A DNA stretch of 47,006 nucleotides from Clostridia bacterium (GTDB taxonomy: Bacteria > Bacillota > Clostridia > Christensenellales > UBA1242): NCBI GenBank assembly GCA_017467895.1, contig JAFUKB010000036.1, positions 1 through 47,006 of the forward strand, read 5' to 3'. Below, one piece after another: positions 1-8,066 of this stretch. The translations under genes were made by a program, and so were the position numbers. The notes under the pieces were generated by a model. The model did not search any database, was not told the origin of the DNA, and saw nothing but the letters and a program-made list of their open reading frames with translations. Position 1 is the first letter of the stretch. Each line of letters begins with the position of its first letter.

Positions 1-1
1 A

Positions 2-181
2 GCAGATTTAATTACCCAAACATTCCGCCAAGGGGTAAATGGCTTTTGGTGGCTCCGCTCTCCTTACGCTGTCAGCGGCTACAATGCGTGGTTTGTCCGC
101 GACTCTGGCGATGTGGACACCAGCGGTGTGTGCTCTTCGTACGGCGCGCGCCCTGCTTTCCAAATCAACTTTGCGGTGTAG
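2..181 (+). CDS. DGR target protein, C-terminal end (partial)
   Basis: The frame is open from the window edge and codes 59 residues before a TAG stop; the N-terminus lies outside the window. The residues run FWWLRSPYAVSG, then a diversified stretch, then SYGARPAFQINFAV. WWLRSP followed by a GARPA/GVRPA-type ending is typical of C-type-lectin-fold DGR targets (DUF6273-like). Nearly the whole visible protein is the variable repeat at 41-155, identical to the template at 1681-1795 except at template adenines. The reverse transcriptase gene converges on it 190 bp downstream. By homology to the complete relative at 6741 it is probably an exported surface protein whose ligand-binding face is rewritten, but its ligand is unknown. 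Confidence 0.9.
   Translation, partial: ADLITQTFRQGVNGFWWLRSPYAVSGYNAWFVRDSGDVDTSGVCSSYGARPAFQINFAV
41..155 (+). repeat. DGR variable repeat (VR1)
   Basis: This 115-bp stretch aligns without gaps to the reverse complement of 1681-1795. I count 21 mismatches. Each is at one of the 32 template adenines, and all 83 non-adenine positions agree. Most hit AAC/AAT codons, which became CGC, GAC, TCT, GGT, TGC and others. The 3' part (137-155) is GC-rich and identical in both copies, fitting the initiation-of-mutagenic-homology end. A 7-bp inverted repeat, GCGCCCT at 148-154 and AGGGCGC at 196-202, spans the VR end and might correspond to the hairpin found downstream of other VRs; its long loop makes that uncertain. 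Confidence 0.97.
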
Positions 182-305
182 GGTAACCAAACCGTAGGGC
201 GCTTAGAATTTAGTGTTCGCACAAAGTTGAGTTGCAAATTTTTAAAATCAAAAAATTGAAGTATGCAAATTGGCAAAAAATGTTAATATTGCAAACAAAG
301 CAAAT

Positions 306-331
306 AAAACTCCCCTTATGGGAGTTTTTTT
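306..331 (+). terminator. Rho-independent terminator after the DGR target gene
   Basis: A 9-bp stem (AAAACTCCC/GGGAGTTTT) with a 5-nt loop is followed by a T run. It ends the target transcript between the convergent target and reverse transcriptase genes, and it is nearly symmetric, so it may work in both directions. Confidence 0.8.
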
Positions 332-351
332 GCAATATTAAAATCATATTT

Positions 352-390
352 ATGCAAATGCTTTAGCCCCTTATGGGCGAGCATTTGCAT
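352..390 (-). other. Hairpin over the 3' end of the reverse transcriptase gene
   Basis: ATGCAAATGCT at 352-362 is perfectly complementary to AGCATTTGCAT at 380-390, and an inner GCCC/GGGC pair closes the loop. The reverse transcriptase stop codon lies inside. No good T run follows on the minus strand, so this may be an mRNA 3'-end structure rather than a classical terminator. Confidence 0.5.
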
Positions 391-1447
391 TCTTCTTTTT
401 TGCGGGTTTTGGAGTGTTAATTAAATTTTTTAGCATGCCAATATATTTTACATTTAAGCCATTTACAGTTAATCTTTTAATATTACCTTTAAAACCAGCA
501 AGGCTTTGATTAATCACAAACTTATCAATCTTGCCTGCTTCAAAATCATTTTTCAAATCTTTTATTCTTTTTAACATTCGGCGCTTGCTTTGAGTTTTCA
601 TTCTTTTTAAAATTTTCCCTGATGGTAAAATTTTGTAATGCACTCCTAAAAATTCTATGCCGTTTTTTATTGGTATGATTTCAGATTTTTTATTTACCTC
701 TAAATTTAGGCTGATTATTTCTTTTTTTAGTAATGCAAACAAATCTTTTAAAAATTGTTTGTTATTATGTAAAATTAGCAAGTCGTCCATATATCGGACA
801 TAATATTTAATTTGAAATTTTTCTTTTATTATCCTATCTATATTGTTTAGATAAAGCAAAGCAAAAATTTGGCTTGACTGGTTACCCATGGGGACACCCT
901 TGCCGGGACTGTGTTCATAACTATCAATAACATGATAAACTAAGTTTTTTAAGTCTTGGTCATGAATTTTGCCTAATTTTTGCTTCAAGATTTCATGGTC
1001 TATGTTATTAAAATATTTTTTTATGTCTAATCTTAAAAAATAACCATTATTACCATATTGTTTAAAATATTGGCTCATAAAGCCCTCTAGACGAGAACGA
1101 GTAAAATGTGTACCTTTTTGTTTTCGGCAGGCGCCGTTATCGAAAATTAGTTTTTTTGTATAATATGGCACCAAAAAGTTATAGCACAAGCAGTTTTGCA
1201 CGACTCTATCTCTATATGCTAGGGCTTGAATTTCTCGTTCTTTGGGGTCGTATATCATAAATCGCTTATATGATTTAATTCTGTATGTTCCGTTTTGCAA
1301 AGCAACAGACAGATTGTTAATATGATAAAACATATCTATCTCAAATTTTACAACTTCGTTTTTATAGCGTTTGCATTTTCTTGCTCTTAAGTGTGCCTCA
1401 TAAAGTTTTTCATATGTTGCTATATTTTTTAATTCGTATTTAATCAT
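371..1447 (-). CDS. DGR reverse transcriptase
   Basis: This 358-residue protein is the error-prone reverse transcriptase that copies the TR RNA into adenine-mutagenised cDNA for transfer to the VR. Visible motifs are LRLDIKKYFNNIDH (motif A, catalytic D141), GVPMGNQSSQIF (motif B, about 184-195) and YVRYMDDLLIL (motif C, Y219-D222). GNQSSQ, ending in SQ where group II intron and retroviral enzymes usually have SP, is characteristic of DGR enzymes. No maturase or endonuclease domain follows, and the length suits the family. The ATG has AAGG upstream on the minus strand. It is the last gene of the minus-strand order avd-TR-RT. The active-site residues are all present, so it is probably functional. 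Confidence 0.95.
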   Translation of the reverse strand: MIKYELKNIATYEKLYEAHLRARKCKRYKNEVVKFEIDMFYHINNLSVALQNGTYRIKSYKRFMIYDPKEREIQALAYRDRVVQNCLCYNFLVPYYTKKLIFDNGACRKQKGTHFTRSRLEGFMSQYFKQYGNNGYFLRLDIKKYFNNIDHEILKQKLGKIHDQDLKNLVYHVIDSYEHSPGKGVPMGNQSSQIFALLYLNNIDRIIKEKFQIKYYVRYMDDLLILHNNKQFLKDLFALLKKEIISLNLEVNKKSEIIPIKNGIEFLGVHYKILPSGKILKRMKTQSKRRMLKRIKDLKNDFEAGKIDKFVINQSLAGFKGNIKRLTVNGLNVKYIGMLKNLINTPKPAKKKNANARP

Positions 1448-1680
1448 TTTTTAACCTTAATAATTAATATCGTTAATTCTAAAAAAAACTATCGGGCGGT
1501 ATTTGATTTTAATCAATTCCGCTAAAGCCCGAAAACTGCCTTAGATTTCATGCAGCGTTAAGGCTTCCGATAGCATTATTTACCCCGAATATATTCTCGA
1601 GGCAGGAGAATGATTCCTTTACCCTAAAACACGGCGGTGCTCAACAGCAGAGCACCGAACTGGCTATACTTAGGGTATAT
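1448..1680 (-). ncRNA. Structured spacer RNA between TR and reverse transcriptase
   Basis: This 233-nt spacer is packed with complementary segments. Next to TR, TACCCTAA (1620-1627) pairs with TTAGGGTA (1670-1677) and encloses the hairpin CGGTGCTC/GAGCACCG (1635-1642 with 1650-1657). Nearer the RT gene, CTATCGG (1489-1495) pairs with CCGATAG (1567-1573) and encloses two hairpins. One is CGGGC/GCCCG (1493-1531), which holds an inner TTGATT/AATCAA. The other is GCCTTA/TAAGGC (1538-1564). In the Bordetella phage DGR the RNA just 3' of TR is needed for cDNA priming and Avd binding; I infer the same role here. Confidence 0.7.
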
Positions 1681-1795
1681 CAGGGCGCGCGCCGTACGAA
1701 TTGTTCACATTGTTGTTGTTCACATTGCCATTGTTGTTGACATACCACGCATTGTTGCCGTTGTCAGCGTTAGGAGAGCGGAGCCACCAATAGCC
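1681..1795 (-). repeat. DGR template repeat (TR)
   Basis: Read on the minus strand this would code GYWWLRSPNADNGNNAWYV and then a stretch rich in Asn, ending SYGARP. It carries 14 AAY codons. Mutating the adenines of AAY can give many amino acids but no stop codon, which is the classical DGR design. It lies between avd and the reverse transcriptase on the same strand, and it is the invariant source for VR1. The alternating GC 3' end stands out in this AT-rich DNA. Confidence 0.97.
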
Positions 1796-1851
1796 CGGGC
1801 TAATTGCCTTAAACCATACCCCTACAATAGTTGGCTTAGCCAACTTATTGC

Positions 1852-2340
1852 CTATTCAACGCGACGCTTATCGCTCGCAATCCAATTATTAAGCAGAATT
1901 GTGCATTCTGCACCTAATTTCCCGATATTCATATATTGCTTTTTTATTATGCATTGTTGCTTAAACGCTATTTCGGCGGTATATTCTAGCATCCGTATAA
2001 TGTTGAGTGCTTTTATTTGATAGTCTAATCTTTTTTTATGTTTTTCTTCTTCGCCTTTTTTTATTAAAACAGAATTAGCGGAATATAAATTGTCAATAAG
2101 GTCTAAGCACAAAGAATGCATTTTAGCAATTAAAGTATATCTAAAATGCTTTGGTGACTTTGCTGTTACTGTAAATACATAAAGCGATAGGTCTTTGCAT
2201 TTTGTTATAACAAACAATTCGCCTGCGTCGTCGCGTATGTGTATATTGCGAGAGTTTGTTTTTGTTTTATTAGAAGTGTCTGCATTTTCTTGCTCGTTCT
2301 GATTTGATTTATAATTTTTATTTTCGTTTGTTTCTATCAA
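1852..2340 (-). CDS. avd: DGR accessory variability protein (Avd-like)
   Basis: This 162-residue protein sits directly upstream of TR and RT on the same strand, the usual place for Avd. Avd forms a basic pentameric four-helix barrel that binds the reverse transcriptase and TR RNA and is required for mutagenic retrohoming. The first 35 residues are polar (Asn, Lys, Glu and Thr rich). From about residue 60 onward the sequence reads as long amphipathic helices rich in Lys and Arg, fitting the S23/four-helix-bundle Avd family. The start appears to be TTG, with AAGAGG 8 nt upstream on the minus strand. I recognise the family by context and helical pattern rather than by a catalytic motif. Confidence 0.8.
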   Translation of the reverse strand: MIETNENKNYKSNQNEQENADTSNKTKTNSRNIHIRDDAGELFVITKCKDLSLYVFTVTAKSPKHFRYTLIAKMHSLCLDLIDNLYSANSVLIKKGEEEKHKKRLDYQIKALNIIRMLEYTAEIAFKQQCIIKKQYMNIGKLGAECTILLNNWIASDKRRVE

Positions 2341-2725: not shown

Positions 2726-2922
2726 TAGTTAAAAAAGTCCTTTAAATTTGTTATTATTTGATTTTGAAAAAGATGATTAAAATCTTCAAGCGATTTTAGC
2801 ACGATTGCAATTTTAATAAGAGAGTTTAATGATATATTTCCTGTTGCCTCAAATCGCCTAACTGAAGCATAACTAACACAAAAATAATTTTCTTTAAAAA
2901 AATCAAAAAAACCGTTGACATA
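2725..2922 (-). pseudogene. XRE-family HTH (HipB-like antitoxin) remnant without N-terminus
   Basis: The frame after the upstream TAA reads SYASVRRFEATGNISLNSLI and continues LKSLEDFNHLF before its stop. This is the second half of an XRE helix-turn-helix of the type found upstream of HipA. No start codon or first helix is seen. The tRNA-Ala promoter now overlaps its 5' end on the other strand. Its stop overlaps the ATG of the HipA-like remnant, as in intact hipBA operons. Confidence 0.55.
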
Positions 2923-2943
2923 TTACGGCAATAGTGATAAAAT
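2915..2943 (+). promoter_or_regulatory. Promoter of tRNA-Ala
   Basis: TTGACA (2915-2920), a 17-bp spacer and TAAAAT (2938-2943), ending 20 bp before the tRNA. A TG precedes the -10 box by one base. Confidence 0.85.
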
Positions 2944-2962
2944 CAATTTCGTTATCAATTTT

Positions 2963-3039
2963 GGGGGTGTAGCTCAGCTGGCTAGAGCGCCTGCCTTGCA
3001 AGCAGGAGGTCATCGGTTCGATTCCGTTCACCTCCACCA
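2963..3039 (+). tRNA. tRNA-Ala (anticodon TGC)
   Basis: The 7-bp acceptor stem (GGGGGTG with CACCTCC) includes one G-U pair. The D arm is AGCTCAGCTGGCTAGAGC, and the anticodon stem CCTGC/GCAGG carries loop CTTGCAA with anticodon TGC. The T loop is TTCGATT. The CCA end is encoded. It stands alone, with its own promoter and terminator. Confidence 0.97.
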
Positions 3040-3042
3040 AAC

Positions 3043-3070
3043 AAAACCTTCGCTATATGCGAAGGTTTTT
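3043..3070 (+). terminator. Terminator of tRNA-Ala
   Basis: AAAACCTTCGC and GCGAAGGTTTT form an 11-bp stem followed by T residues just downstream of the tRNA. Confidence 0.85.
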
Positions 3071-3155
3071 TAATGAATAGTGAATAATTATGATTATTTA
3101 ATTAAATGCGGGTCAAAGGTAAAATAAATAATATTTTAATTAAAGCATTTTTTAT

Positions 3156-3184
3156 GTATACTTTCACAATTTTGTGTCAACAAT
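3156..3184 (+). promoter_or_regulatory. Possible sigma-F-type promoter of spoIIR
   Basis: GTATA, a 15-bp spacer and GTCAACAAT resemble the forespore sigma-F pattern (GYATA and GGNNANNNT) with one mismatch in the -10. spoIIR is a classical sigma-F gene. The elements are short and could be chance. Confidence 0.35.
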
Positions 3185-3216
3185 CATTTTGCAACAGCAA
3201 AATGGGGAGGTTATGC

Positions 3217-3744
3217 ATGAAAAAGTTGGCGGTTTTAGGGGCTGTGATTATTATTGTTTTGGTTATTATATTGGGCACAACTTACAAACAGACAAGCACG
3301 GATTATTTACGCATACACATTAGGGCAAACAGCAATTTAGAGGTTGACCAAGCGGTTAAATACAAAATTAAAGACCAAGTGGTTTTAACACTTACTCCGC
3401 TTGTGGCAAATTGTGACAGTTTTGACAGTGTTAAAAGTGTTATGGCTAACAACTTAGCATTAATAGACGGCGTAGCAAACAGGGTGTTAAGAGAGAATGG
3501 TTTTTCTTACACTGCAAAAAGCAAGTTGTGCGAAGAGGAGTTTCCAACCCGTGCATATGGAGAGTTTGTTTTAGAGGCGGGTTTTTATGATGCCATAATA
3601 GTTGAACTTGGCAAGGCAGAAGGCGACAACTGGTGGTGTGTGGTATATCCACCGTTATGTTTTGTAAATTCGGGTGCGGGTAACAATGTTGTTTATAGGT
3701 CACGCATTTGGGATTTAATTGAAAGTTGGAAAAACTCTCATTAA
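3217..3744 (+). CDS. spoIIR: Stage II sporulation protein R
   Basis: SpoIIR is made in the forespore and exported to the intermembrane space, where it triggers SpoIIGA to cleave pro-sigma-E in the mother cell. The 175-residue product has a short N-terminal membrane or signal segment (about 3-23). It then shows family blocks LRIHIRANSN, FPTRAYGEFVLEAG and NWWCVVYPPLCFV. The frame stays open further upstream, but the ATG at 3217 follows GGGGAGG by 6 nt and begins the signal segment, so I chose it. The gene is monocistronic, lying between the tRNA terminator and its own terminator. Identification is firm from the conserved blocks. Confidence 0.93.
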   Translation: MKKLAVLGAVIIIVLVIILGTTYKQTSTDYLRIHIRANSNLEVDQAVKYKIKDQVVLTLTPLVANCDSFDSVKSVMANNLALIDGVANRVLRENGFSYTAKSKLCEEEFPTRAYGEFVLEAGFYDAIIVELGKAEGDNWWCVVYPPLCFVNSGAGNNVVYRSRIWDLIESWKNSH

Positions 3745-3795
3745 ACATTTTAAAAAACATATATTTGGTTTATTAAAAAACATTTACAATAACAA

Positions 3796-3824
3796 AATGC
3801 TCACAATCTTGTGGGCGTTTTTTT
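3796..3824 (+). terminator. Terminator of spoIIR
   Basis: TGCTCAC and GTGGGCG pair around AATCTT, with G-U pairs, and a run of seven T follows. Confidence 0.7.
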
Positions 3825-3852
3825 GTATATTTTTTTAAATTTGCACATACTA
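3825..3852 (+). promoter_or_regulatory. Possible sigma-G-type promoter of sleB
   Basis: GTATA (3825-3829) and CATACTA (3846-3852) lie 16 bp apart, resembling late-forespore sigma-G elements (GHATR and CATNHTA). SleB genes belong to the sigma-G regulon in Bacillus. The spacing is a little short, so this is tentative. Confidence 0.35.
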
Positions 3853-3875
3853 GGCATAGCAAAAGGGAGAATTTT

Positions 3876-4571
3876 ATGGAAACAAAAAAGCAAAAAATAT
3901 CTTTTTCAAAGTTTAAAAAGTTATTTGCATTATGTCTTGTTTTAATGTTTGCTTGTGTTCTTGGTGGAACGCTTTATGCGGTTAACTACAACGCAACCGA
4001 GCAAGTAACTGTTGTTGCAACCGTATCAGAAAACAAGCAAGTTCAGCAAAAGTTAAAAGATTTGGGATATTACAACGGTGCTGTTGATGGCATTTTTGGT
4101 GCAAAAACCGTTCAGGCAGTTAAAAACTTTCAGCGTGATTACGGATTAACAGTTGATGGCATTGTAGGCAAAAACACTCTTGCAAAATTGGGGCTTGGCT
4201 CTGCCAGTGGCAAATATTCGTCAAACGACATTTATTTGCTTGCAAAATGTGTGCATGCCGAGGCGCGTGGCGAGCCTTATGTTGGGCAAGTGGCAGTTGC
4301 TGCGGTTATTTTAAACAGGGTTAAAAATCCAAACTTTCCTAACACAATTTCGGGCGTGGTTTATCAGCCATGGGCGTTTACTGCAGTGCACGACGGGCAA
4401 ATTAACTTAGAGCCAAACAGCACGGCTTACAGCGCTGCTCAAGACGCAATGAACGGCTGGGACCCAACCTATGGTTGCATTTATTATTACAACCCACAAA
4501 CAGCAACAAGCCAATGGATTTTTTCTAGGCAAACTGTTGTAACTATTGGGCAACATGTGTTTGCGATTTAA
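3876..4571 (+). CDS. sleB: Spore cortex-lytic enzyme SleB
   Basis: SleB cleaves cortex peptidoglycan during germination. The 231-residue protein has a signal or membrane segment (about 14-36), then a peptidoglycan-binding domain (about 52-106, with LKDLGYYNGAVDGIFG and VKNFQRDYGLTVDGIVG), then a hydrolase_2 (SleB/CwlJ) domain (about 118-231). In the catalytic domain HAEARGEPYVGQVAVAAVIL contains the conserved glutamates E129 and E133. AAGGGAGA precedes the ATG. It is followed by ypeB, its usual partner. The combination of domains and neighbour makes the call firm. Confidence 0.93.
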   Translation: METKKQKISFSKFKKLFALCLVLMFACVLGGTLYAVNYNATEQVTVVATVSENKQVQQKLKDLGYYNGAVDGIFGAKTVQAVKNFQRDYGLTVDGIVGKNTLAKLGLGSASGKYSSNDIYLLAKCVHAEARGEPYVGQVAVAAVILNRVKNPNFPNTISGVVYQPWAFTAVHDGQINLEPNSTAYSAAQDAMNGWDPTYGCIYYYNPQTATSQWIFSRQTVVTIGQHVFAI

Positions 4572-6673: not shown

Positions 6674-6740
6674 TACCCCAAAGCAACTCAAAATGTGGAA
6701 TTTTAATTCAAAATAGGGGCTTTTGAAAGGAGAGAAAAAC

Positions 6741-8066
6741 ATGAAAAACAAATTCAGATTGTGGCTCAACATAGTAACCATCTGCTTGTGCGTATGCGCA
6801 ATAGCAATAGGTGTTTACTCGGCAACCACAGCCACATTAAATGTTGGTGGCAAGATTGCCTTTACTGCTCACGGTTGCACGGGCACAGTAAGTGGCACAA
6901 TAGTAGGGCATGCCGAAGGAAGCACTGATGCTGAGAAGGAAAATGGCTATCCAACTACAGAAGCAGTAGACTTAAATGGTGGCACAGCGGTAGCCTTTGG
7001 CGACGCCAATGGCTTGCCATTAGGAAACCAATACTTTAGTGATATGGCGTCAGCAGACGGCAGTGTTGAAGATATAACAATCACATTAACAATAACCAAC
7101 ACTTCAGCATTTGCAATAACTGCATACATAGATGACGAAAACACAACATTGCCAACAAATGTTGTAACAAACAATGACACAACACCAAGTGTAAAAATTG
7201 AAAAAGGCAACACTGGCACATTAACGATTGGCTTAACACTTCAAAAAGCAGGCTCAAACGGCTCTTATGCTTATGTAAACATGTCTTTAAGCACCTTAAA
7301 CATTCAACTTGGCTTTGATAAATATGTAGACCCAACTTATACAATAACCCCTGCAGGCGGTTTAACAGTTGGAGAATCAACAAGTGCATATTCATATTTA
7401 ACAACAACAATGGGCAAAGACTCAGAGGGTAACGATATTCGTTGGTATGCAATAGCAAAATCAACTGATGGCGGAGCAAACTTCACATCAATTGCAAAAA
7501 CAAACACAACTGAAGTTGCTTCAGGCACATATATCTTTATCTCAGAATATATCTTGCCAATACAAAACACAACTTTAGGTTCTAGTGGACGTATAGCATT
7601 TACGCATAAAAATAATCCAAACTATGCAGAGGCATATGGAGTAAACTACAACGGTTCAACAATCCAACAATATTTAAATGGACATGGTGCAAACACATTT
7701 GCCAAAGAGTATAACATAAGCGATTCAAGCGTATATGCAAATATATCAGCAGTAGACTTGGCAGGTGAATCGTGTGATGATTATAGAGATAGCACAACTT
7801 ATACAACGCAAGACACAGACAACCAAAAACTTTGGCTTTTGAGTTACGGTGAATTCAATAAATACTTTGGCGAAGGCGACTCTTCCGGCCTAGGGTACTT
7901 TAACGGCTCCGCTGATTACTGGTGGCTCCGTTCTCCCTACGAAGTCTATTCTGGCTTCGCTGTTGCGTGCTGTGTCGACAGCAAGGGTGGTGATTTGAGC
8001 GGCTACGATGTTTACTACGACTACTACTGCGGGGTGCGCGCGGCTTTTGAAATAACAATATCATAA
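6741..8066 (+). CDS. Exported DGR target-family protein with DUF6273-like variable C-terminus
   Basis: The 441-residue protein begins MKNKFRLWLNIVTICLCVCA and continues AIAIGVYSATTATLNVGG, a signal or anchor segment reminiscent of SipW/TasA-type exported proteins. The middle (about 40-215) is Thr/Asn rich and beta-like. The C-terminal domain (about 225-441) has features of DUF6273/C-type-lectin-fold DGR targets: STIQQYLNGHGANTF, KLWLLSYGEFNKYFG, DYWWLRSPYEVYS and GVRAAFEI. Many residues between WWLRSP and GVRAA are Tyr, Asp, Ser, Gly and Cys in codons reachable from AAY. I chose the ATG at 6741, after GAAAGGAG. The related gene at 46840 shares its first 30 codons almost exactly. Confidence 0.85.
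   Translation: MKNKFRLWLNIVTICLCVCAIAIGVYSATTATLNVGGKIAFTAHGCTGTVSGTIVGHAEGSTDAEKENGYPTTEAVDLNGGTAVAFGDANGLPLGNQYFSDMASADGSVEDITITLTITNTSAFAITAYIDDENTTLPTNVVTNNDTTPSVKIEKGNTGTLTIGLTLQKAGSNGSYAYVNMSLSTLNIQLGFDKYVDPTYTITPAGGLTVGESTSAYSYLTTTMGKDSEGNDIRWYAIAKSTDGGANFTSIAKTNTTEVASGTYIFISEYILPIQNTTLGSSGRIAFTHKNNPNYAEAYGVNYNGSTIQQYLNGHGANTFAKEYNISDSSVYANISAVDLAGESCDDYRDSTTYTTQDTDNQKLWLLSYGEFNKYFGEGDSSGLGYFNGSADYWWLRSPYEVYSGFAVACCVDSKGGDLSGYDVYYDYYCGVRAAFEITIS
7917..8045 (+). repeat. Second variable repeat (VR2), not matching the local template
   Basis: TAC-TGG-TGG-CTC-CGT-TCT-CCC then diversified TAC, GTC, TTC, TGC, GAC, AGC and GGT codons, ending GGG-GTG-CGC-GCG-GCT. The layout equals VR1, but it differs from the local TR at non-adenine sites (CGC/CGT, CCT/CCC, GCT/GAA) and in the GC-rich 3' end. 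It was therefore probably written from another template outside this window, or is an old copy. Confidence 0.65.

Follow-up and report, generated by a model that had tools for sequence, protein, structure and literature searches.

The closest described systems to the locus studied here are four. The first is the diversity-generating retroelement (DGR) of phage BPP-1, comprising brt, avd, a template repeat (TR), and a variable repeat (VR) in mtd. Nine loci with 15 targets (NTPase and conflict proteins) have been described in the 7.95 Mb of Thiohalocapsa PB-PSB1 (PMC10907252), and cyanobacterial DGRs comprise 219 C-type lectin (C-lec) genes in 21 genomes, whose products are mostly cytosolic (PMC7517822). 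In the gut phage DGRs nd4/nd12 and the tentaclins, the VR is borne by a DUF6273 C-lec domain, and DUF6273 is thereby known as a domain that DGRs target (PMC10743442). Earlier reports also cover DGRs with more than one VR, with remote targets, with incomplete loci, and with inverted cassettes (PMC3521204, PMC6642488, PMC7517822, PMC10907252), and phage DGRs commonly, though not by definition, carry a GC-rich 7–10 bp hairpin with a 4-nt GRNA loop past the VR (PMC3240598).

We analyzed a stretch of 47,006 nucleotides (the window) from an uncultured bacterium, whose genome assembly (G000) amounts to 871 kb on 48 contigs and is ~90% complete. The locus at its start shares with BPP-1 the avd–TR–reverse transcriptase (RT) order, TR/VR changes confined to adenines, a GC-rich VR 3' end, a predicted C-lec target fold, and an RT related to PDB entry 8ub7. 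Unlike BPP-1, it is chromosomal, its target gene is convergent to the RT, it has several remote targets, and a GC-rich GRNA-loop hairpin past VR1 is lacking. Several DGR loci and classes per chromosome, incomplete loci, a proposed action in trans, and C-lec targets are common to this genome and PB-PSB1; however, we found two cassettes and ~25 genes for probably secreted DUF6273 proteins in only 0.87 Mb. As in cyanobacteria, the VRs of dispersed paralogues can be matched to a distant TR and some paralogues are devoid of a VR, whereas here the family is probably secreted and the assembly offers no template for most VR classes. The DUF6273 domain bears the VR as in nd4/nd12, where it belongs to phage receptor-binding proteins rather than to a chromosomal, probably secreted family. 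The cassette itself is textbook, and neither DGRs as such nor remote targets or inverted cassettes are new; the unusual features are how many targets there are and how densely they lie, the missing templates, and a TR without RT in a sister genome. We read the locus as an intact cellular, not prophage, DGR (probability of about 0.92), which would diversify C-type-lectin-fold targets under guidance of TRs in cis and in trans, with targets that were duplicated and dispersed and templates that were either left unassembled or lost.

On the minus strand, the cassette runs in the order avd, TR1, RT, and the DUF6273 target gene lies convergently on the plus strand at the window start. TR1 (1681–1795, minus strand, 32 adenines) and VR1 (41–155, plus strand) align without gaps over 115 bases. 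Realignment confirmed the preliminary description, which had reported 21 differences, all at template adenines and none at the 83 other positions. By type, the changes are A→G 9, A→T 8, and A→C 4, and 11 adenines are unchanged. The chance that 21 of 21 differences hit the 32 adenines is 2.5e-15 (hypergeometric). In the target frame, the TR1 adenines occupy codon position 1 (n = 14) or 2 (n = 18), but never position 3. Accordingly placed, they make 18 codons variable and a stop codon impossible, with ~7e18 possible proteins. Variants of TR1 or VR1 were not found in IMG/VR.

The invariant 3' end of VR1 (137–155, plus strand) is GC-rich and IMH-like, and by analogy with BPP-1 may serve the corresponding role. 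It directly abuts CTTTCC, the counterpart next to TR1 being ATATACC, and ends 26 nt upstream of the end of the last sense codon. Just past VR1 lies an imperfect 17-nt inverted repeat (157–238, plus strand; arms 157–173 and 222–238), which is long-spaced and not a hairpin of the BPP-1 type; a search for the latter after VR1 yielded a best stem of 4 bp, and its absence counts against our reading. Within this region, positions 183–207 (GGTAACCAAACCGTAGGGCGCTTAG) resemble the 5' box of TR2 on contig C44 (AAACCGTAGGGCTTAGG), and may be what is left of a TR once located here.

RTs of the DGR clade are characterized by the motifs (I/V/L)GxxxSQ and YxDD. The intact RT reading frame (371–1447, minus strand, 358 aa) contains YMDD and MGNQSSQ, as the preliminary description had stated for YMDD and GNQSSQ, with the methionine in first place as a small departure. 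The protein matches RVT_1 and scores 304 bits against a phage RT family in PHROGs. Among solved structures in the PDB, 8ub7 scores best (E 1.8e-35) and leaves group II, DRT3a, and retron-type RTs well behind; the PDB search labels this entry merely "Reverse transcriptase", and it is the BPP-1 DGR complex. NCBIfam and PADLOC also report lower-scoring matches to group II, Drt3a, and UG models, which could raise the suspicion of an RT of a different class (group II intron, DRT defence RT, or retron) with incidental repeats. However, these NCBIfam matches are all under the cut-off, 8ub7 reaches 126 bits versus 42 bits, and TR, VR, and Avd are present together with an adenine-only pattern of the improbability given above. 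We regard this possibility as negligible, since it is ruled out by the TR/VR pattern.

The Avd reading frame (1852–2340, minus strand, 162 aa, TTG start as listed) is likewise intact and encodes a basic protein (pI ~9.2). Its match to the PHROG 'Avd protein of DGR' (E 6.5e-14) agrees with the Avd-like gene described before; that it stays under the curated cut-offs of Pfam and NCBIfam counts against our reading, and a sequence search of the PDB returned no match. Avd is common but not universal in DGRs, and relatives of the protein are present in most of the related DGR loci examined. Furthermore, adenine-only TR/VR pairs adjoin RT relatives in Lachnospiraceae, Treponema, Kiritimatiellae, and Bacteroidetes. 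The identification as a DGR is therefore supported by the adenine-only differences, by the DGR-type RT and Avd matches, and by these pairs beside related RTs elsewhere. In contrast, the claim of a complete DGR with its target does not hold within the window, because the target gene is truncated by the left edge and only its last 59 codons (2–181, plus strand) are present.

The 5' part of the target gene most likely lies on contig C36, where an open reading frame (2748–4007) reads in frame into the window and the contig end is identical to window positions 1–28. The join depends on this 28-base overlap in a fragmented assembly, a point that counts against our reading. The joined gene would have a product of 470 aa and can be aligned to an intact 462-aa paralogue on contig C22, the body of which is 95.2% identical over 1,248 aligned bases. 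The C-terminus of the target is a DUF6273 domain. As direct reading shows a segment resembling a signal peptide at the start of the targets (MKKKFSLWLNIVTICLCVCAVAIGVYA), DUF6273 target proteins are probably secreted. AlphaFold2 modelled the full-length target only poorly (mean pLDDT 48), and we therefore used only a model of the C22 DUF6273 domain (46 sequences, mean pLDDT 67). Matches of this domain model in the PDB at Z 5–7 were almost all C-type lectins, including 2y3c, the DGR variable protein of T. denticola (Z 5.7), and the top match was 9qa6 (Z 12.0). This moderate-confidence model suggests a C-type-lectin fold for the target.

The C22 paralogue also allowed for a comparison of VRs within the genome. 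Of the 115 positions of its VR, 22 are unlike VR1; 21 of these coincide with TR1 adenines and the remaining one with a T. This extends the adenine pattern to a related copy, and the C22 VR keeps 82 of the 83 non-adenine positions of TR1. A second cassette with RT2, TR2, and VR2 was found on contig C44 (L009, 680–2794). Here, TR2 and VR2 differ at 20 of 39 adenines and at none of 85 other positions, and TR2 also fits remote VRs on contigs C21 (83 of 85 non-adenine positions kept) and C35 (79 of 81). Five VRs are thus explained by two templates, TR1 fitting VR1 and the C22 VR, and TR2 fitting VR2 and those on C21 and C35.

In the C44 cassette, the RT is encoded on one strand while TR2 and VR2 lie on the other, and the contig ends in rRNA-like sequence. 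We do not count the inverted TR/RT order as new, because it is known from other DGRs (PMC3521204); it may also reflect misassembly of this 3.3-kb contig. An avd gene is missing from C44. An orphan Avd is encoded on contig C12 (L011, 4163–4651, minus strand), without RT or TR nearby, is 48% identical to the Avd of the window, and could supply C44 in trans. Contigs repeatedly begin or end within near-identical DUF6273 gene bodies, as seen for C44/C21 and for C36/window/C22, and gene counts and joins are therefore somewhat uncertain.

The preliminary description had further called the system active or recently so. Recent activity is supported by the absence of drift in the cis VR and by the 95%-identical paralogue, but present activity is not proved, as an undrifted VR tells when homing last took place and not whether it still does. 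On these sequence comparisons, it is likely that the cassette is active or was recently active. Alternatively, it might be a recent relic, in which RT and TR persist without diversifying VRs and the paralogues inherited old variation. The one or two non-adenine changes in each of the remote VRs (C22, C21, C35), which count against our reading, would fit a relic, as would the lack of a template in the assembly for most VR classes. However, the RT and Avd reading frames are open and intact, drift is zero at the 83 (VR1) and 85 (VR2) non-adenine positions, and the VRs of 95%-identical paralogues differ at 21 template-adenine sites, so that we consider a relic unlikely.

The DGR footprint in this genome extends far beyond the template-matched VRs. 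After removal of two TR matches, we counted 28 DUF6273 genes, ~25 of which show such a footprint: besides the five template-matched VRs, ~20 genes have VR-like ends. Between 12 and 15 of the unmatched VRs fall into three classes, in which hypervariable codons are NNC or NNT with a fixed third base. Differences at codon positions 1/2/3 number 116/131/12, 143/115/18, and 14/12/4 in the three classes, position 3 contributing 5–13% versus 62% in the 60 nt upstream (class 3). Furthermore, GC3 rises from ~0.30 in gene bodies to ~0.67 in VR cores. The genes on C34 and C1b lack this rise and are probably ordinary DUF6273 members, and C23 seems to be another. The window itself holds a second gene of the family (6723–8066, plus strand), whose VR-like C-terminal part (~7920–8063; Y3 0.85, GC3 0.59 versus 0.31 in the body) matches neither TR1 nor TR2.

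Neither inferred consensus TRs nor a covariance model of the TR spacer detected templates for VR classes 3–5 in the assembly. They may be unassembled or lost, because the genome is ~90% complete and several contigs break inside DUF6273 genes. With no template at hand for them, the ~20 unmatched ends might instead have arisen by conventional positive selection acting on the surface of a lectin. This would account poorly for codons with a fixed third base and a position-3 share of 5–13%, for the jump in GC3 between body and VR, and for the fixed blocks between variable codons within classes, which resemble those of matched VRs. We consider it quite improbable, even somewhat more so than a relic, and favor an origin of the unmatched ends by DGR action.

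Comparison of TR flanks between this genome and Clostridiales bacterium SIG415 (G071) of the same genus revealed a common 5' box and a common 3' spacer. In the window, the box (GTAGGGGTATGGTTTAAGGC), recognized by eye as common to the TRs of the genus, lies at 1806–1825 and the structured spacer 3' of TR1 at 1591–1684 (both minus strand). The predicted fold consists of a UACCCUAA...UUAGGGUA stem around an inner hairpin, followed by a hairpin (AGGA...UCCU in the window feature, AAGGA...UCCUU in the common fold), with compensatory changes in 9 of 25 pairs among five sequences. The spacer covariance model matched only TR1 and TR2 in G000 and three places in G071, and had no match in three other genus members. 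It also matched beside TRs of DGRs outside its training (L059, 3e-6; L176, 2e-5; L066, 2e-5; L173, 0.007; L163, weakly), and the TR RNA had no match to an Rfam family. One of the three places in SIG415 is a TR that stands alone between glnS-like and rplQ-like genes (contig C10, L162, 4140–4373, plus strand); it keeps the 5' box and the spacer fold, with no RT within 4 kb and no RT match on the contig.

Of the 118 family genomes that were sampled, 17 encode RTs of this kind. Within the genus, the RT-bearing G000 and G071 have 27 and 26 DUF6273 matches, and G010, G048, and G091, which are without RT match, have 0–1; expansion of DUF6273 thus accompanies the RT across these five genomes. Four RTs of the genus form one clade (100/100), the third RT of G071 falls elsewhere, and the nearest sampled relatives of the genus clade are Treponema RTs (82/89). 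Phage records contain distant RTs only, with at most 38% identity, the closest phage RT being that of nd12 (38%), and IMG/VR contains no close relatives. In the window, the neighbors are chromosomal (SpoIIR, a SleB-like hydrolase, and YpeB), and the C22 target adjoins TypA and DnaB. The distant phage RTs together with the chromosomal neighbor genes argue against a prophage location.

The footprint, the intact genes, the conserved TR-RNA fold, and the fit of one template to several targets are seen in the sequences themselves, whereas RT–Avd binding, adenine-specific misincorporation, homing, and display have been taken over from established DGR work. RT and Avd would bind a transcript comprising the TR and the structured spacer 3' of it, and the RT would copy the TR RNA with random bases opposite adenines. 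The cDNA would home at the GC-rich VR end and take the place of the corresponding 3'-terminal sequence in targets, both in cis and in trans. As an outcome, a C-type-lectin-fold surface on secreted proteins would be reshaped in a receptor-like display. Target genes would have been duplicated and then dispersed, and ~20 VR-bearing copies would be left with no recognizable template in the assembly as their TRs are unassembled or lost. More tentatively, in this small-genome Clostridia lineage with sporulation genes, a shared pool of RT and Avd might diversify ~25 secreted lectin-like proteins in trans via interchangeable TR RNAs, defined by 5' box and 3' spacer fold and some of them without RT as on C10 of G071, and gain and loss of TRs might create and strand VR classes; we think this broader scheme possible, but rather less than even odds would be fair. 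The setting is unusual, with ~25 hypervariable, probably secreted proteins in less than 1 Mb as compared to the 15 targets of PB-PSB1 (PMC10907252). The matched pair formed by the cis VR and its remote paralogue (95% identical), together with the conserved TR-RNA fold, makes two questions testable, i.e., how far DGR action reaches in trans and what turns an RNA into a template.

Regarding the 3' flanks of other targets, those on C3, C8, and C39 (and C9) have an AT-rich 7–9 bp hairpin with a 4–6 nt loop ~25 nt past the VR end. This hairpin is absent after VR1; it shows a compensatory change (C3 versus C8/C39), and its shuffle p-value is ≤0.02.
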